Below, piece by piece: positions 2,688-62,096 of a stretch of DNA of 64,000 bases (positions are counted from its first letter, which is position 1; each line of letters starts with the position of its first letter). Both the position numbers and the translations under genes were made by a program. Below the pieces are notes generated by a model that worked only from the letters and a program-made list of their open reading frames with translations, was not told the origin of the DNA and did no database searches. This stretch comes from Gemmatirosa kalamazoonensis (GTDB lineage Bacteria; Gemmatimonadota; Gemmatimonadetes; Gemmatimonadales; Gemmatimonadaceae). Location of the stretch: assembly GCF_000522985.1 (NCBI RefSeq), contig NZ_CP007128.1, positions 2,092,220 to 2,156,219 on the forward strand, read 5' to 3'.

Positions 2688-2743
2688 GCTGCGTGGCTGC
2701 GTGGCTGCGTGGCTGCGTGGCTGCGTGGCTGCGTGGCTGCGTG
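2688..2743. repeat. Tandem array of seven 8-bp units (GCTGCGTG)
   Basis: Seven perfect head-to-tail copies start 2 nt after the SusD stop codon. Thirteen bases later two copies in the opposite orientation follow (CACAGC-type strand, 2757-2772), so the transcript could fold into a long GC hairpin. Copy number is likely to vary between strains because the copies are identical. It may act as a transcription barrier behind the SusC-SusD pair; there is no T-run. Confidence 0.9.
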
Positions 2744-2909
2744 AGTACGTCGGTGTCACGCAGCCACGCAGCCACTCAGGTGTCGTAGTCCCGCAGCCGC
2801 TTCGTCGCACCGGACGGACGTTCCGTCGCGCGGGCGGAGAGATCGGCGGCGCCGGGCCCTAGGGTGATGTCCAGAACACCGGCTCACCCCTCGACGGAGG
2901 TTCTTCCCG

Positions 2910-11019: not shown

Positions 11020-11190
11020 AAACCGCAGAGGACGCAGAGGGCCGCAGAGGACTGCTTTTTCGACCACAGAGGGCACAGAGGACACGGAGGAAACCAACGA
11101 GCGTGGTACGCCTCCGTGTCCTCCGTGTCCTCTGTGGTTCGAATGAAAGGCTCTGCGACCCTCTGCGTCCTCTGCGTCCTCTGCGGTTCA
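11020..11190. repeat. Nested intergenic inverted repeat, family A (CAGAGGACRCAGAGG arms)
   Basis: In the 411-base gap 10920-11330 I see no gene. The gap is filled by two nested imperfect inverted repeats: outer arms 11020-11050 and 11151-11189 (CGCAGAGGACGCAGAGG type) and inner arms 11061-11090 and 11111-11142 (CACAGAGG type). The sequence between inner and outer right arms, ATGAAAGGCTC, recurs in the copy near 38070. The flanking 10920-11019 and 11191-11330 hold nothing else I recognise. Confidence 0.9.
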
Positions 11191-13820: not shown

Positions 13821-13925
13821 CGCCTGGGGATCCAACGGCGATCTCCGTGGATCTCGGGATAGGCTCCAGCCTGGAGCCGCGAGCCTATCCCGAGATCCAT
13901 GAAGATCGCCGTCGAGATCCCCCTG
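13821..13925. repeat. Long imperfect palindrome, family B1
   Basis: Between the PAP2-like gene and the SusC gene. Left arm GATCTCGGGATAGGCTCCAG (13852-13870 region) pairs with CTGGAGCC...AGCCTATCCCGAGATC on the right, and the outer part GGATCCAACGGCGAT is shared with the hairpins at 21373-21480 and 61850-61960. It could end transcription of the upstream pair or be a mobile non-coding repeat. The stop codon upstream is followed by a TGTTAGGC word at 13808-13815. Confidence 0.8.
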
Positions 13926-20925: not shown

Positions 20926-21000
20926 GAACCACAGAGGACACGGAGGACACGGAGGAGAACCACGTCACTTGTCGGCTTCCTCCGTGCCCTCCGTGTCCTC
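20926..21000. repeat. Intergenic inverted repeat, family A, right arm cut short
   Basis: Left arm CCACAGAGGACACGGAGGAC and right arm TCCTCCGTGCCCTCCGTGTCCTC flank a loop of about 25 bases. The terminal TGTGGTTC of the right arm is missing; the repeat runs straight into the decayed coding remnant at 20998-21366, so the two probably share a breakpoint. Confidence 0.85.
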
Positions 21001-21372: not shown

Positions 21373-21480
21373 GCGAGGTGACAGGCGAGGACCCTGGGGA
21401 TCCACGTGCGATTGAAGAGATCTCGAGATCCTTTTCATCGCCGTTGGATCCCTAGGGTCCTCGCCCAGCACCTGGAACCG
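21373..21480. repeat. Intergenic hairpin, family B2
   Basis: Arms CGAGGACCCTGGGGATCCA and TGGATCCCTAGGGTCCTCG enclose GTGCGATTGAAGAGATCTCG and AGATCCTTTTCATCGCCGT, itself partly palindromic around AGATCTCGAGATCT. The copy at 61850-61960 is nearly identical. It is followed after about 30 bases by a family A repeat, as is the other copy. Confidence 0.9.
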
Positions 21481-21511: not shown

Positions 21512-21592
21512 TCAACCACAGAGGACACAGAGGACACGGAGGAACCCAACAAGAAGTGGTTCTCCTCCGTGTCCTCCGTGCCTCCGCGTGAG
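21512..21592. repeat. Intergenic inverted repeat, family A (downstream of B2)
   Basis: Left arm AACCACAGAGGACACAGAGG, right arm CTCCGTGTCCTCCGTGCCTC, with an inner AACCCAAC...GTGGTTC loop pairing. It forms one composite element with the hairpin at 21373-21480. The following 21593-21756 upstream of the Spy-like gene shows nothing I recognise. Confidence 0.9.
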
Positions 21593-32342: not shown

Positions 32343-33161
32343 ATGGAGACGCCGGTCGCGCTCGCCCAGTTCGTCGGCCCCGCGATCTACGAGCACGTGC
32401 GTGGCGACGTCGCGATGCACGAGGGGACGTTCGCGGCGGGACTGGTCCTGCCCTGTCACGTGCACGACGCGCCGGTGATCAGCCTCGTGCTGGAGGGCGT
32501 CGGCGTCGAGGAGGTCGACGGCCGGACGCGCGCCGTCGCCGCGCAGCACCTGCTCCTCACGCCGTCGTACGCGCCGCACGGCTATCGCTTCGGGAGCGCG
32601 GGGCGCTGGTTCAACATCCAGCTGTCCGATCGGTGGCTCGCCCGCGTCGTCGACGGCGGGCCGCGGCTGCCCGTGACCGCGCAGGTCGTGCGCAGCCGCG
32701 CGGCGGCGGCGTGGGTGGCACGCGTGCGCGCGGAGGTGCGCGAGCGCGACGCGATCTCGACGCTCGCGATCGACGGCGCGCTCGTGCTCATGGTGGCGGA
32801 CCTCGTCCGTCTCCGCGTCGACGGCGCGGTCACGCGGCCGCGGTGGCTGCACCGCGTGGAGGACGCCATCGAGGCGTCGGTCGCCGCGCCGCCGCCGGTG
32901 GACGAGCTGGCGGCGCTCGCGGGCGTGCATCCGACGCACCTGCTGCGCACGTTCCGTCGGCACCACGGCACGACGGTCGCCAACTACGTCAGGCAGCGGC
33001 GCATCGAGCGCGCGCGGGCGGCGGTCGCGAAGGGCGACCGGTCGCTGTCGATGATCGCGCTCGACGCGGGCTTCGCCGACCAGTCGCACTTCACGCGCGT
33101 GTTCCGGCAGGCGTTCGGCGAGACGCCCGGGCAGTACGCGCGCGCGCTCCGCGGCCGTTAG
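32343..33161 (+). CDS. AraC-family transcriptional regulator (paralogue 1)
   Basis: 272 residues. The N-terminal cupin-like sensor has the metal/ligand strand LPCHVHDAPVISLVLEG; the C-terminal double helix-turn-helix has DELAALAGVHPTHLLRTFRRH and MIALDAGFADQSHFTRVFRQAFGETPGQY, the AraC signature. It is closely similar along its whole length to the regulator at 35479-36327 (shared AGVHxxHLLRTFRRHHGxTV core), so these are recent duplicates. It lies convergent to the hydrolase operon; its TAG stop is part of an octamer pair with the convergent gene's stop. The inducer is unknown. Confidence 0.93.
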   Translation: METPVALAQFVGPAIYEHVRGDVAMHEGTFAAGLVLPCHVHDAPVISLVLEGVGVEEVDGRTRAVAAQHLLLTPSYAPHGYRFGSAGRWFNIQLSDRWLARVVDGGPRLPVTAQVVRSRAAAAWVARVRAEVRERDAISTLAIDGALVLMVADLVRLRVDGAVTRPRWLHRVEDAIEASVAAPPPVDELAALAGVHPTHLLRTFRRHHGTTVANYVRQRRIERARAAVAKGDRSLSMIALDAGFADQSHFTRVFRQAFGETPGQYARALRGR

Positions 33162-35478: not shown

Positions 35479-36327
35479 ATGACCGCGCCGATCGGGATCG
35501 GACAGTTCGTCGGAGCACCGGTGCGCGCCCGCACGTTCGAGGGCGTCTCGCTGGCGGAGAACACGTACGCCGCCGGCCTGCGCGTCGCGGCGCACGCGCA
35601 CGACGCGCCGCTGCTCAGCCTCGTGCTGCAGGGGAACGCGACGGAGGACGTCGGGAGCCGGACGCGCGAGCTGGGCGCCCAGAGCCTGCTCTACACGCCG
35701 TCGTTCGAGACGCACGCGCATCGCTTCCTCACGCCTGGGCGGTGGCTCAACGTGCAGTTCACCGCCGCGTGGTTCGCGCGCGTCGGCGCCGGCGAGCGCG
35801 CGCTCCCGAAGGCACCGCAGCTCGTGCGCGGCACGGCGGTGAACTGGGCGTCGCGCATCGGCGCCGAGCTGCGCGAGCCGGACGCGGTATCGCGCCTCGC
35901 CATCGAGGGCGCGCTGCTCCTGCTCGTCAGCGAGCTCTCCCGCCTCCCCGGGCTCGGCGAGCCGCGGCGTCCGCGCTGGCTCGGCGTCGTCGAGGACGCG
36001 ATCGAGGCGTCGCTCACGGAGCCGCCGACGGTGGCCGACCTTGCCGCGCTCGCCGGCGTGCACGCGTCGCATCTGCTGCGCACGTTCCGCCGGCACCACG
36101 GCGCGACGGTCGCCAACTACGCGCGACAGCGGCGCATCGAGCAGGCCCGCGCAGCGATCGCGCAGGGCGACCGATCGCTCTCGGCCATCGCGCTCGCGGC
36201 CGGCTTCGCGGACCAGTCGCACTTCACGCGCGTGTTCCGTCGCGCGTTCGGCGAGACGCCGGGGGCGTATGCGAGGTCGCTGCGGGGGGATGCGTTGCTG
36301 CAGGATGCCTTGCTGCGGGACGACTGA
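35479..36327 (+). CDS. AraC-family transcriptional regulator (paralogue 2)
   Basis: 282 residues from ATG 35479. N-terminal cupin strand AAHAHDAPLLSLVLQG, C-terminal DNA-binding part DLAALAGVHASHLLRTFRRH and AIALAAGFADQSHFTRVFRR. It differs from paralogue 1 mainly by a C-terminal tail LLQDALLRDD that is encoded by two 15-bp units matching, in reverse, the tandem array at 36581-36640. So part of its coding end derives from simple-repeat expansion. Divergent to the DJ-1-like operon, its probable target. Confidence 0.93.
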   Translation: MTAPIGIGQFVGAPVRARTFEGVSLAENTYAAGLRVAAHAHDAPLLSLVLQGNATEDVGSRTRELGAQSLLYTPSFETHAHRFLTPGRWLNVQFTAAWFARVGAGERALPKAPQLVRGTAVNWASRIGAELREPDAVSRLAIEGALLLLVSELSRLPGLGEPRRPRWLGVVEDAIEASLTEPPTVADLAALAGVHASHLLRTFRRHHGATVANYARQRRIEQARAAIAQGDRSLSAIALAAGFADQSHFTRVFRRAFGETPGAYARSLRGDALLQDALLRDD

Positions 36328-36330
36328 GGG

Positions 36331-36435
36331 CGGGACGATCCACGGCGGGACGATCCACGGCGGGACGATCCACGGCGGGACGATCCACGGCGGGACGATC
36401 CACGGCGGGACGATCCACGGCGGGACGATCCACGG
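36331..36435. repeat. Tandem array of seven 15-bp units (CGGGACGATCCACGG)
   Basis: Seven identical copies directly after the AraC stop codon. The 356-base gap 36328-36683 holds no gene; besides this array it holds an AT-richer stretch at 36536-36580 (CTATAACTACGATC) and the second array at 36581-36640. Confidence 0.93.
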
Positions 36436-36580
36436 CGGGGACCGGCTGCGCCGTCTGGGATCCGCGGTGCGTCGGTTTGATACCGTCGCGCGATGCGGCG
36501 CGTGGAACTATGGGCGAAGGGGGGGGAGCCTCCCCTGGTAACTATAACTACGATCCCGCGCGAGCGATCCCGCGGTATAT

Positions 36581-36640
36581 CGTCCCGCAGTAAGGCGTCC
36601 CGCAGTAAGGCGTCCCGCAGTAAGGCGTCCCGCAGTAAGC
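36581..36640. repeat. Tandem array of four 15-bp units (CGTCCCGCAGTAAGG)
   Basis: Four copies, the last ending C instead of G. The unit is the reverse complement (one change) of the 15-mers that encode the last residues of the upstream AraC gene (GCCTTGCTGCGGGACG), so coding end and array could pair into a long stem enclosing the first array. It lies 44 bases before the rhamnose isomerase gene. Confidence 0.93.
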
Positions 36641-36683
36641 CGTCAGGCGTTGACACCCGCCTCCCGCAGCCGATCTTGCGCGG

Positions 36684-37967
36684 ATGACGATCGCTCCCCC
36701 CGACGCGCGCGCGGCCGACGACGCGGCCCTCGACGACCACCGGCGCGACTACGAGAGCCTCGCCGAACGGCTCGATCGCCGCGGGCTGCGCGCCGACGAC
36801 GTGGTGGACGCGGTGCGCCGGTTCGAGGTGGCGGTCCCCAGCTGGGCGTTAGGCACCGGCGGCACGCGCTTCGGCCGCTTTCCCGGGCCCGGCGAGCCGC
36901 GCACGCTCGACGAGAAGCTCGAGGACGCGGCCGTCGTCCATCGCCTCACCGGCGCCACGCCGCGCGTCTCGCTCCACCTGCCGTGGGACGATCCGCGCGA
37001 CCCCGATGCGCTGAAGGCGCACGCCGCGCAGCTCGGGCTCGGCTTCGACGCAGTGAACTCCAACACGTTTCAGGACCAGCAGGGCCAGCGGCTCAGCTAC
37101 AAGCTCGGCTCGTTCAGCCACCCCGACGCCGCGGTCCGCCGCCAGGCCGTCGACCACAACCTCCACGTCGTGGAGGTGGGCCGCGCGCTCGGCGCCGAGG
37201 CGATCACGATCTGGCTCGCCGACGGCTCGAACTATCCCGGGCAGATGTCGCTGCGACGCTCGTTCGATCGCGTGCTCGACTGCCTGCGCGAGGTGTACGC
37301 CGCGCTTCCCGCAGGCTGGCGGCTGTTCACCGAGCACAAGCCCTACGAGCCCGCGTTCTACGCGACGGTCGTGCAGGACTGGGGCTCCTCGCTGCTGCTC
37401 GCGCAATCGTTAGGCGACCGCGCACAGTGCCTCGTGGACCTCGGCCACCATCTGCCGAACACGAACATCGAGATGGTCGTCGCGCGGCTGCTTGGCGCGG
37501 GGAAGCTCGGTGGCTTCCACTTCAACGACTCGAAGTACGGCGACGACGACCTCACGGCCGGCTCCATCAAGCCGTACGCGCTGTTCCTCGTCTTCCACGA
37601 GCTGGTGCTGGCGGAGCGGGACCGGCTGCCGTCGTTCCGGCCGGCGTACATGATCGACCAGAGCCACAACCTCAAGGATCCGGTCGAGGATCTGCTGCAG
37701 ACGGTCGATCAGCTCCAGCTCGCGTGCGCGAAGGCGTGGCTCGTCGACCACGACGCGCTCGCCGCGCACCAGGAGAGCGGGGACGTGCTCATGGCCGAGC
37801 GGACGCTGAAGGACGCGTTCGAGACCGACGCGCGCCCGCTCGTCGCCGAGGCGCGCCGGCGCGCCGGTGCCGCGCTCGATCCCGTGCGCGCGTTCCGCAC
37901 TTCTGGCTATCGCGCGACGAAATCGGCGGAGCGCGTCGGCGGCATCGTAGAGGCGCGCGGGCTGTGA
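36684..37967 (+). CDS. rhaI: L-rhamnose isomerase (RhaI type)
   Basis: 427 residues. It converts L-rhamnose to L-rhamnulose. Family signs: SWALGTGGTRFGRFPGPGEP near the N-terminus; metal-site region FTEHKPYEPAFYATVVQDWG, LVDLGHHLPNTNIEMVVA and GGFHFNDSKYGDDDL, with the metal-binding Glu, Asp and His of the TIM barrel. It is the shorter, Pseudomonas/Gram-positive-type isomerase rather than E. coli RhaA. First gene of the rhamnose cluster; a family A repeat separates it from the kinase gene. Tandem arrays lie upstream in place of an obvious promoter. Confidence 0.93.
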   Translation: MTIAPPDARAADDAALDDHRRDYESLAERLDRRGLRADDVVDAVRRFEVAVPSWALGTGGTRFGRFPGPGEPRTLDEKLEDAAVVHRLTGATPRVSLHLPWDDPRDPDALKAHAAQLGLGFDAVNSNTFQDQQGQRLSYKLGSFSHPDAAVRRQAVDHNLHVVEVGRALGAEAITIWLADGSNYPGQMSLRRSFDRVLDCLREVYAALPAGWRLFTEHKPYEPAFYATVVQDWGSSLLLAQSLGDRAQCLVDLGHHLPNTNIEMVVARLLGAGKLGGFHFNDSKYGDDDLTAGSIKPYALFLVFHELVLAERDRLPSFRPAYMIDQSHNLKDPVEDLLQTVDQLQLACAKAWLVDHDALAAHQESGDVLMAERTLKDAFETDARPLVAEARRRAGAALDPVRAFRTSGYRATKSAERVGGIVEARGL

Positions 37968-37984
37968 ACCTTGCTTTGTTCATT

Positions 37985-38109
37985 GAACCGCAGCGGACGC
38001 AGAGGGCCGCAGAGGAAACCAACACCAATTGGTTCTCCTCTGCGGCCCTCTGCGTCCTCTGCGGTTCAAATGAAAGGCTCGGCGGCCCTCTGCGGCCTCT
38101 GCGGTTCCA
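37985..38109. repeat. Intergenic inverted repeat, family A
   Basis: Between rhaI and rhaB. Arms GAACCGCAGCGGACGCAGAG and CTCTGCGTCCTCTGCGGTTC; the tip holds AACCAACACCAATTGGTT, a second small palindrome. A third arm GGCCCTCTGCGGCCTCTGCG follows the ATGAAAGGCTC segment shared with 11020-11190. The copy ends 13 bases before the rhaB start, so it must be transcribed with the operon or contain its own promoter break. Confidence 0.92.
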
Positions 38110-41762: not shown

Positions 41763-41797
41763 CATGGGTCGAGCCGCAGGGGACGACCTCTTTGATC

Positions 41798-41878
41798 GAA
41801 CCGCAGAGGACGCAGAGGACGCAGAGGAGAACAATGAGAGCGCTCTCCTCTGCGTCCTGTGCGTCCTCTGCGGTTCGA
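41798..41878. repeat. Intergenic inverted repeat, family A
   Basis: Arms GAACCGCAGAGGACGCAGAG and CTCTGCGTCCTGTGCGTCCT plus CTGCGGTTC, with the tip GAGAACAATGAGAGCGCTCTC. It fills most of the 151-base gap between the aldolase and LUD-domain genes. Confidence 0.92.
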
Positions 41879-41913
41879 TTACGTGACAGCAGGCGAGCAG
41901 AAGGAGCCATTCC

Positions 41914-43765: not shown

Positions 43766-43839
43766 CTCACGCGGAGCCGCGGAGGACGCGGAGGCCACCG
43801 TCCTCGGTTTCCTCCGCGTCCTCCGCGGCTCCGCGTGAG
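43766..43839. repeat. Inverted repeat, family A variant (GCGGAGCCGCGGAGG), overlapping a gene end
   Basis: CTCACGCGGAGCCGCGGAGG and CCTCCGCGGCTCCGCGTGAG form an almost perfect 20-bp stem around CACCGTCCTCGGTTT. It lies between the convergent ROK and antiporter genes, and the antiporter frame reads through it to the stop at 43767, taking its last 24 residues from repeat sequence. Confidence 0.92.
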
Positions 43840-57484: not shown

Positions 57485-59448
57485 ATCCCGCCGCCGAGTG
57501 GCTGGAAGCGGACGGGCTGGGCGGGTTCGCGTCGGGGCGGGCGGACGGCGTGCGCACGCGGCGCTATCACGCGCTGCTGCTCGCCGCCGCGTCGCCGCCG
57601 ACCGAGCGTGCGGTGCTCGTGAACGGGTTCGACGCGACCGTGCGCACGCCGGACGGCGAGTGGGCGATCTCGTCGCAGCGCTACACGCCGGACGTGACGG
57701 CACCCGACGGCGCGACGCACCTCGCGTCGTTCACGGTCGACCCGTGGCCGACGTGGACGTACCGGCTGCCTAACGGCATCGAGATCGTGCAGGAGCTGCT
57801 GGTGCTGCGCGGGGCGCCGGTCGTCGCGCTGTCCTGGAGGTTGTCGGGACTCGGGACTCGGGACTCGGGACTCGTGGTGCGGCCATTCCTGTCCGGGCGC
57901 GACACGCACGCGACGCATCACGCGAACGGCGCGTTCGACTTCACGCCGCGCGTGGAGGACGACCGCGTGCGGTGGCAGCCGTACGCGGACCGGCCGGCGG
58001 TCGTCGCGGCGTCGAACGGGCGCTACGCGCACGAGCCGGTGTGGTACCACAACTTCCAGTACGACGAGGAGCGCGCCCGCGGGCTCGATTTCGTGGAGGA
58101 CCTCGCCGCGCCGGGCACGTTCACGTTCGATCTCTCGGCGGGACGCGCCGTGCTCGTGCTCGCGGCGGATCTGCCGGAAGCCGCGCCGTGGATCGCGCGC
58201 CCGGCCGACGCATGCTGGCGCGACGTGGAGCGCGCCGAGCGCGCGCGGCGGTCGTCGTTCCGCACGCCGCTGCACCGCGCGGCCGAGGACTACGTCGTGC
58301 GCCGCGGCGCTGGCAAGACGATCGTCGCCGGCTACCCGTGGTTCTCCGACTGGGGACGCGACACGTTCATCGCGATGCGCGGGCTGTGCATCGCCGGTGG
58401 GCGGCTCGACGACGCGCGCGACATCCTGCTGGAGTGGTCGCGGCACGTCAGCGAGGGGATGCTGCCGAACTACTTCCCCGAGGGTGGGCAGCCGGCGGAG
58501 TACAACGCGGTCGACGCCTCGCTCTGGTTCTGCGTGACGGTGCACGAGACGCTGCACGCGTCGGGCGCGGACCTCCCCGCGCTGCGCGACGCGGTGGAGG
58601 CGATCGTGTCGGGCTACGCGGCCGGCACGCGGTTCGGCATTCGCATGGACGACGACGGGCTGCTCGCCGCCGGCGTGCCCGGGGTCCAGCTCACGTGGAT
58701 GGACGCGCGCGTCGACGGCCGCGAGATCACGCCGCGCATCGGCAAGCCGGTGGAGGTGCAGGCGCTGTGGATCAACGCGCTGCGCATCGCCGCCGCGCGC
58801 GAGCCGCGGTGGAACGACGTCGCCGACCGCGCCTCGGCCGCTTTCACGCGACGCTTCTGGAACGAGGCGCGCGGCTGCCTGTTCGACGTCGTCGACGTGG
58901 ACCACGTGCCCGACACCGCCGACGCGTCGCTCCGCCCGAACCAGCTCCTCGCGGTCGGCGGGTTGCCGTGGGTGCTCGTCGACGGCGCGCGTGCGCGCCG
59001 CATCGTCGACGCGTGCGAGCGCGCGCTGTGGACTGTCGCCGGCCCGCGCTCGCTCGCACCCGGCGAGCCGGGATACATCGGCACGTACGGCGGCGACATG
59101 CGCAGGCGCGACGGCGCGTACCACCAGGGCACGGTATGGCCGTGGCTCGCCGGGCCGTTCGTGGACGCGTGGGTGCGCGTGCACTCCGACACGCCGGAAG
59201 CACGCGAGGAGGCGCGCACGCGGTTCCTCGAGCCGCTGGTCGCGCACTACGCGGCGACGACACCGGGCCACCTGGCCGAGATCGCCGACGCCGAGCCGCC
59301 GCATGCGCCGCGCGGCTGTCCGTTCCAGGCGTGGTCGGTGGGCGAGGCGCTGCGCCTGAGTCAGGAGCTGGCCTCGAACTTTTCGCCGAGTCGGTGCATC
59401 TCCATGGCATGCGAGCGAACCCCGAGCCGAGCGACGGCGACCTGGTGA
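57481..59448 (+). CDS. Amylo-alpha-1,6-glucosidase (glycogen debranching enzyme, GH133-type)
   Basis: 655 residues, ATGA overlap with the GH63 gene. N-terminal GDE_N domain (EWLEADGLGGFASGRADGVR, RRYHALLLAAA), then the C-terminal catalytic (alpha/alpha)6 domain: IVAGYPWFSDWGRDTFIAMR, GMLPNYFPEGGQPAEYNAVD, GVQLTWMDARVDGREITPR and GKPVEVQALWINALRIA. It removes alpha-1,6 branches from glycogen or maltodextrin. The last about 13 residues (SMACERTPSRATATW) overlap the next gene by 40 nt in another frame, so the true C-terminus may be inessential. Confidence 0.93.
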
Positions 59449-61840: not shown

Positions 61841-61849
61841 GATAAGGCG

Positions 61850-61962
61850 AGGGGATAGACGAGTACCCTGGGGATCCAAGTGCGATTGAAGAGATCTCGA
61901 GATCCTCTTCATCGCCGTTGGATTCCCAGAGTACTCGCCTGTCACCTCGAACCTGTCGAAGA
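61850..61962. repeat. Intergenic hairpin, family B3
   Basis: GAGTACCCTGGGGATCCAAG and GATTCCCAGAGTACTC form the arms; the interior GTGCGATTGAAGAGATCTCG and AGATCCTCTTCATCGCCG equals copy B2 with one base changed. The following CCTGTCACCTCGAACCTG pairs with GAGGTGACAGG in front of copy B2, i.e. the outer arms have been kept on opposite sides in the two copies. Confidence 0.9.
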
Positions 61963-61977
61963 GAACGTCAACTGCCA

Positions 61978-62096
61978 TTGACCACGGAGGGCACAGAGGA
62001 CACAGAGGAGAACCCTTCAAGAGAAGAAGTTGGTTTCCTCCGTGCCCTCTGTGCCCTCTGTGGTTCAATTCAAAGAGGCAGTCCTCTGCGTGAGAC
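61978..62096. repeat. Inverted repeat, family A (downstream of B3)
   Basis: Arms ACCACGGAGGGCACAGAGGA and CCGTGCCCTCTGTGCCCTCT followed by GTGGTTC; loop GAACCCTTCAAGAGAAGAAG. As with copy B2-A at 21373-21592, this repeat follows a B hairpin at about the same spacing, so both belong to one composite element. Confidence 0.9.

Follow-up and report, generated by a model that had tools for sequence, protein, structure and literature searches.

Two tandem arrays of a 15-bp repeat face each other between an AraC-family regulatory gene and a sugar-utilization operon of Gemmatirosa kalamazoonensis, which raises the question of whether they serve these two neighbors or belong to an element with a wider distribution. 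The locus was analyzed within a window of 64,000 nucleotides (positions 2,092,220 to 2,156,219 of contig NZ_CP007128.1), to which the coordinates below refer unless another locus is named.

Two inverted arrays form a composite element behind an AraC-family gene

The regulator gene (35479..36327, plus strand; HTH_18 and AraC_binding domain matches) was delimited, as were the other genes, with a home-made hexamer caller. Array 1 begins directly behind its stop codon, as the first-pass annotation had reported, and TRF placed it at 36329-36439 (period 15, 7.4 copies, 100% match, score 222). It forms the left arm of the element, with the unit GCGGGACGATCCACG on the plus strand, points right and was also recovered by family matches. 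Array 2 (TRF, 36581-36644, period 15, 4.3 copies, 97% match, score 121) is inverted relative to array 1; together with one degenerate inner unit, it forms the right arm (36574..36644, minus strand), whose repeat CGTCCCGCAGTAAGG is the inverted form of the family unit CTTACTGCGGGACGC. The copy numbers given earlier, seven and four, agree with these values. Both arrays are variants of a single unit, GCGGGACG-NNNN-AC-N. Beyond the arrays previously noticed, the locus has a conserved centre of about 135 bp (36440..36573, minus strand), with a core at about 36457-36566 recognized by core-motif matches in the genome and by alignments, its sense being taken as minus, and with a G-tract motif, GGGCGAAGGGGGG, starting at 36512 on the plus strand. 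Arms and centre make up a composite element of about 330 bp that is a member of a dispersed family (see below). Array 2 ends 39 bp ahead of a sugar isomerase-like gene (AP_endonuc_2; 36684..37967, plus strand), the first of the downstream operon, which continues with an FGGY kinase and an Aldolase_II/SDR gene. One further hairpin lies between the isomerase and kinase genes.

The previous proposal that the gene end and the two arrays can fold as a long stem-loop was borne out by RNA folding of 36290-36655 (MFE -214.3 kcal/mol, z -7.1; none of 100 shuffled sequences reached this stability). The accompanying claim that array 2 is the reverse complement of the 15-mers coding for the end of the regulator needed only a small correction, as the match is nearly exact, with CCTTGCTGCGGGACG paired at 14 of 15 positions. 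A known type of structured RNA was rejected as an identity, given that Rfam returned no match at E<=1 for 36200-36750 and that no covariation was found in the element centre apart from an invariant G/C hairpin.

Degenerate 15-mer units also make up the 3' end of the AraC-family gene itself, from its last codons through the stop (LLQDALLRDD*; 36282..36327, plus strand); TRF detected 2.2 of them at 36288-36320. This extension is absent from the paralogue at 32343-33161. The paralogue ends ...LRGR, whereas the protein encoded here ends ...LRGDALLQDALLRDD, so the extra residues derive from array units. The C-terminal extension, of about ten residues, appears to have arisen as a side effect when the element inserted. 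It had also been suggested that changes in copy number would alter the length of the regulator. This did not hold, as arrays 1 and 2 both lie 3' of the stop codon and only the degenerate units are within the reading frame; a change in copy number would thus leave the regulator unaltered and, the unit being 15 bp long, the frame would never be shifted.

The element belongs to a family dispersed through the genome

We searched the whole genome (7.48 Mb, 4 contigs) for the repeat. The array-1 unit, allowing up to 2 mismatches, matched at 180+208 places, compared to 15+14 for the reversed pattern. The two-unit pattern GCGGGACG-N7-GCGGGACG, with up to 1 mismatch, gave 232+219 matches against 9+5 for its reversed control, and a three-unit pattern gave 160+155 against 0. 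When 288 genomes of the order were scanned, this genome included, the three-unit array was found in none of the 287 others.

Almost every cluster in the stretches that we examined was a convergent pair of arrays, of 2 to 29 units, around a centre of about 100-135 bp. In a few pairs (L130, L133, and L136), the centre is missing and the arrays adjoin each other directly. The interior is the conserved core in most copies, nothing in a few, and in one case a PF05635 gene. The core (TTGGGCGAAGGGGGG...) occurs at 75 places in the genome, with 0 in the control, and elsewhere in the order its motif gave one or two two-mismatch matches in each of 7 genomes. Of the 75 places, one was not recovered as a distinct copy with a stricter motif, and the remaining 74 cores were analyzed: 33 are flanked by arrays on both sides, 9 on a single side, and 32 on neither.

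Where an array edge faces a gene ending at the element, it falls from -42 to +48 nt relative to that gene's stop codon in 41/41 cases. All 33 two-array copies are intergenic as judged with the home-made gene caller, and only 3 of the 33 are between divergent genes. The probability that two units have the same variable 4-mer is 0.26 within an array versus 0.05 genome-wide, indicating that arrays homogenize locally, and the two arrays of an element, left and right, resemble each other to some degree (0.29 against 0.16). As 2 to 29 units are found among paralogous arrays of a single genome, the arrays are plausibly unstable, and such instability could alter the spacing ahead of the sugar operon.

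Mean core identity is 0.71 among two-array cores, 0.60 among bare cores, and 0.62 across the two sets. The tighter set of two-array cores is consistent with a single founder but falls short of proof, and the same identities fall short of proving that all elements originated from bare cores. A bias of the arms toward G on one strand (68/73) was not used, as it is weakened by a bias in the rest of the left flank (62 against 10).

The bare cores have features of their own. These copies (for example L186:3959-4058 and L193:3959-4058, with 30 further ones) resemble a promoter-type motif. Those that are intergenic have a same-sense gene downstream in 21/27 cases, its start mostly 25-50 bp away, and 19/32 keep a fixed distance of 27-28 nt between CGCCCA/T and TA[CT]CA. 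The set looks like a large regulon or an older repeat family. Separately, another inverted repeat, of the GGAACGCGGATCAGCGGATTCGCGAATCCG type, is found beside the core in several copies (L148, L153, L154, L190, and L195).

PF05635 genes are bracketed by inverted short tandem arrays

The gene-bearing member of the family (C2:4973452-4973763, listed as both L153 and L201) has 15-bp arrays of the window family on both sides of a PF05635 gene, whose reading frame continues through the right array. The protein matches PF05635 with E 7.1e-24 and PDB entry 2gsc (XCC0516) with E 1.3e-11. PF05635, the S23/IVP four-helix bundle family, is known from the intervening sequences of 23S rRNA and is described by Warrier 2016 (PMC4990558), in the part of that article available to us, as having no known function; a resemblance to the Avd protein of diversity-generating retroelements appears in an excerpt of PMC10053308.

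The same genome encodes nine PF05635 genes, and short tandem arrays lie beside 9/9. To score bracketing, we compared the 250 bp on either side of a gene and took the best inverted match; 8 of the 9 scored 40 or more. At one gene, L204, the flanks contain separate hairpins in place of a single inverted pair. The units differ from gene to gene: 7-bp TCGGGAC, 7-bp GAGCGTG, 8-bp GTGGCTGC, 8-bp AGGGCAGG, several 14-mers, and the 15-mer.

The analysis was extended to other genomes of the bacterial family, in which PF05635 genes are present in 145/178. Samples were the best-scoring matches and not a random draw, and five loci that run off the end of their contig (L210, L217, L224, L227, and L228) were left out of the counts. 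A set of 34 loci, consisting of the 9 above and 25 from other genomes of the family, scored at least 30 in 31 cases and at least 40 in 29. Among 177 called genes of the G. kalamazoonensis genome, the corresponding numbers were 20 and 4; these genes came from stretches selected for arrays and include an IVP gene, so that the control is biased against the claim, and indeed its two top scorers are array-flanked loci, one of them that IVP gene. In a second set of 40 further family loci, 37 reached at least 30 and 35 at least 40, compared with 4/800 and 0/800 random windows and with 0/83 at either threshold for open reading frames of the same stretches. Taken together, 68/74 PF05635 loci of the family lie between inverted short tandem arrays, mostly with 7-bp units, and clear inverted flanks were not found at the other 6. 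Tandem arrays of period 7, 14, or 21 were present on at least one side of 45/74 loci versus 11/200 random windows. By comparison of these loci, PF05635 genes are thus shown to be generally bracketed by inverted short tandem arrays whose units differ by locus.

Protein and unit do not vary together. Over 53 loci, similarity of the IVP proteins was uncorrelated with similarity of the units (rho 0.025; 92 of 300 permutations as high), and only the closest protein pairs tend to have common units, which speaks against unit-specific recognition of the REPIN/RAYT kind.

The array-gene-array block moves as a unit in cyanobacterial plasmids

Beyond the bacterial family, 39 genomes, nearly all from other phyla, were drawn from a pattern scan of contigs in which the G. 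kalamazoonensis genome was excluded and in which scattered one-off matches are among the matches listed; 11 of the 39 have PF05635. The arrangement recurs in other phyla: loci of this set with complete flanks scored at least 30 in 8/17 cases, including those of Sinomicrobium and Roseimaritima, with 13 incomplete loci left out and 340 random windows that may overlap the tested flanks. Most of the weak matches in Myxococcota lacked clear inverted flanks. For plasmids, nearly all of them cyanobacterial, 11 of 17 records were sampled; 8 of 11 loci scored at least 30, two more reached 29 with visible heptamers, and L316 was ambiguous.

The cyanobacterial plasmids provided a view of movement. What three of them (L319, L330, and L332) have in common is limited to the segment between and including the two arrays, which is 416-419 bp long and 78-82% identical; their flanks are unrelated. 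The L319 site is empty in plasmids of Nostoc linckia and Microchaete whose flanks are 97-99% identical. GTAAT is found at both junctions of the filled site and once in the empty one, making this the one clear candidate for a site duplication, and another plasmid (L329) has a decayed IVP gene at the same place. Further filled and empty pairs, at about 85-95% identity, were found between cas10 and cmr3 of Picosynechococcus 7003 and 7002, for Calothrix versus Nostoc and Tolypothrix, and between nrd genes of Nostoc and Calothrix; these pairs are too diverged at the junctions for a duplication to be read. As the block is common to unrelated sites and absent from sites that are 97-99% identical, the array-gene-array unit of about 420 bp moves as a whole. 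These alignments show movement specifically for the gene-bearing elements of cyanobacterial plasmids.

The gap between cas6 and cas4 of type I-D CRISPR plasmids (loci L318, L320, and L333) is occupied by an IVP element in two cases, Anabaena sp. 90 and Pseudanabaena. In Dolichospermum (L333), it contains a hairpin repeat of another kind, and this site was accordingly not counted as empty. The gap is possibly a recurrent landing site.

Other array families in the window

Two further arrays of the window have units known from IVP genes. A gene-less hairpin of the 8-bp GTGGCTGC family (2689..2779; TRF), with 7 units, a short loop, and 2-3 inverted units, has the unit that flanks IVP gene L205. 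A one-sided 7-bp TCGGGAC array (57844..57874, plus strand; TRF), 31 bp and 4.4 units long, has that of L200; no inverted partner was seen nearby, and it is apparently inside a coding stretch. Three consecutive units of GTGGCTGC and of TCGGGAC matched 134+81 and 338+306 times genome-wide, each with a control of 0. The flanking units of the IVP genes L201, L200, and L205 are thus all high-copy dispersed families of this genome and, with one array site each of the GTGGCTGC and TCGGGAC families in the window, at least three families linked to IVP would be present there, one of them represented by the gene-less element behind the AraC-family gene.

At least ten more hairpin sites were seen in the window (11024-11176, 13835-13912, 20934-21000, 21376-21473, 21517-21586, 37983-38107, 41795-41879, 43766-43839, 61848-61949, and 61981-62064), several of them made of the 9-bp unit CGCAGAGGA/CACAGAGGA. 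Genes of another type are also found within hairpins. PDDEXK_3 (GxxExxY-type) genes are inside complete short-repeat hairpins at 5 of 7 distinct loci of the genome (L276, L278, L279, L280, and L283), with units of 9 and 11 bp among others; one set consists of the 9-bp CGCAGAGGA repeat, also present gene-less in the window. At L135:6988-8083, a small gene that appears LURP-one-like by eye has hairpins on both sides resembling the 14-bp unit that flanks IVP gene L203.

Comparison with known systems

Among the described systems nearest to this one are the intervening sequences of 23S rRNA genes with an S23p ORF in Leptospira and Coxiella. According to the part of Warrier 2016 (PMC4990558) that we could consult, hairpin ends, excision by RNase III, and the S23p protein are established for these sequences, and their mobility was no more than a hypothesis. 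They resemble the window family in having inverted, stem-forming ends and PF05635 in gene-bearing copies, as well as in their size of about 430 bp and proposed selfish or mobile nature. Complementary, stem-forming ends are indeed present in the window copy, as judged by the fold described above, and the S23p/PF05635 ORF is present in the full-length copy L201. Unlike the sequences of that account, the window family is intergenic at gene 3' ends and outside rRNA, the window copy itself lying between two protein genes, its ends are tandem arrays, and many of its copies are gene-less.

REPIN/REP elements with their RAYT (IS200-like) transposase, in the GTAG/CGTC families as outlined in PMC3733652, are likewise small, dispersed, intergenic inverted pairs near gene 3' ends, and gene-less copies outnumber the gene. 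As far as that outline goes, their arms are palindromes of 20-40 bp, in contrast to the 2-29 tandem 15-mers seen here, and the partner protein is another one. We rejected an identity with REP/RAYT because the genome had 0 PF01797 (Y1, RAYT transposase) matches, in a search whose control was positive in 5/14.

Classical IS-derived MITEs are also short non-coding elements with terminal inverted repeats, to which the inverted arrays and non-coding centre correspond. GTAAT on both sides of one cyanobacterial gene-bearing copy is a candidate target-site duplication, and the ends are common to an IVP-encoding element, IVP not being a known transposase. BrickBuilt of Porphyromonas gingivalis (PMC4596501, in extract) is MITE-like and intergenic with a head-to-tail tandem repeat; its array is internal and its inverted ends short, whereas in the window element the two inverted arrays are the ends.

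Short intergenic tandem arrays have been described as heptameric repeats in Xanthomonas and Nostoc (Rehm 2015, PMC4692102) and as TAACTGA repeats in Beggiatoaceae (PMC4679880). For Xanthomonas, the portion of the former paper at hand gives 70-75 convergent inverted pairs, generally not associated with mobile elements; within what we saw of both sources, the repeats are described without S23/IVP genes and as generally unlinked to mobile elements. The S23/IVP link is a new addition to this literature, and our search of open-licence papers returned no report of PF05635 genes between inverted tandem arrays.

Origin of the element and alternative explanations

Comparison among loci showed a genome-wide family, its inverted-pair architecture, its siting at gene 3' ends, and a gene-bearing copy. 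Based on these, the feature behind the AraC-family stop codon is probably a gene-less, MITE-like copy of a mobile array family linked to IVP. The element would have arrived directly behind the stop, its outermost units replacing the gene end and lengthening the protein by about ten residues. The process that spread the gene-bearing copies may also have spread the gene-less ones, with the arms acting as a hairpin in single-stranded DNA or RNA, and the arrays may then have grown or shrunk through slippage or recombination. Landing behind stop codons could explain why the element is tolerated. It counts against this reading that the core inside the gene-less copies does not stem from the IVP gene, so that these copies are not simple deletion derivatives. 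The 6 of 74 family loci and most weak Myxococcota matches, which lack clear inverted flanks, also weigh against it, as does the limitation to one clear candidate for a site duplication.

The arrays might instead be the mobile or self-propagating entity, with PF05635 genes as passengers that landed in or recombined into the hairpins and have no functional tie to them. The failure of IVP similarity to predict the unit makes this a serious rival, and we consider it quite possible, though short of an even chance. The variety of interiors (core, nothing, or IVP) favors it as well, and the bracketed PDDEXK_3 genes point the same way. It does not readily account for IVP genes being bracketed almost without exception in the bacterial family, nor for arrays and gene traveling together.

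Two other explanations place a function at the genes next to the element. The first-pass annotation had proposed a tuner specific to the AraC-family regulator and sugar operon, acting in cis through array length. The short distance from array 2 to the first gene of the operon and the variation of array length among copies speak for it, but the same element is found at dozens of unrelated loci, the arrays are outside the ORF, and a search of 36280-36700 yielded no sigma-70-like site, so that we regard a tuner as very improbable. Overall, the earlier observation was correct and the pairing of the arms stands, while its local interpretation does not, leaving that annotation partly supported. A selected 3'-end RNA structure at many genes (an mRNA stabilizer, attenuator, or RNase III site) would fit the strong hairpin, the location directly behind stop codons, and the few two-array copies between divergent genes. 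The same siting would also result from insertion followed by purifying selection, and the restriction to one species of 288, the free variation of array sequence and length, and the lack of covariation in the centre make such a role improbable. Finally, although tandem arrays are prone to mis-assembled length, hundreds of units on three contigs with near-zero controls, and the same architecture in many independent genomes, leave hardly any room for an assembly artefact or chance.

In conclusion, we favor a gene-less copy of an IVP-linked mobile array family as the explanation of this locus, and an insertion then probably accounts for both the odd C-terminus of the regulator and the wide spacing ahead of the sugar operon. 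On a broader reading, which we judge about evenly balanced between right and wrong, S23/IVP genes would be the coding part of a distinct, phylum-crossing class of very small mobile elements, bounded by inverted tandem arrays of short, typically 7-bp units that vary by element. Much of the unexplained short tandem repeat DNA dispersed in bacteria, such as the cyanobacterial and Xanthomonas heptamers and the window arrays, would then be their gene-less debris or non-autonomous offspring, and the intervening sequences a special case in rRNA genes. So far, annotation has kept the two parts separate, the genes as 'four helix bundle protein' or 'S23 ribosomal protein' and the arrays as 'repeats'. 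Considered together, they look like one class of mobile element that has clear ends, empty sites occurring in nature, and a partner protein that can be tested. The findings suggest that a type of bacterial mobile DNA has been overlooked, and they give a genomic context to two puzzles, the role of S23/IVP outside rRNA genes and the origin of dispersed short tandem repeats in bacteria.
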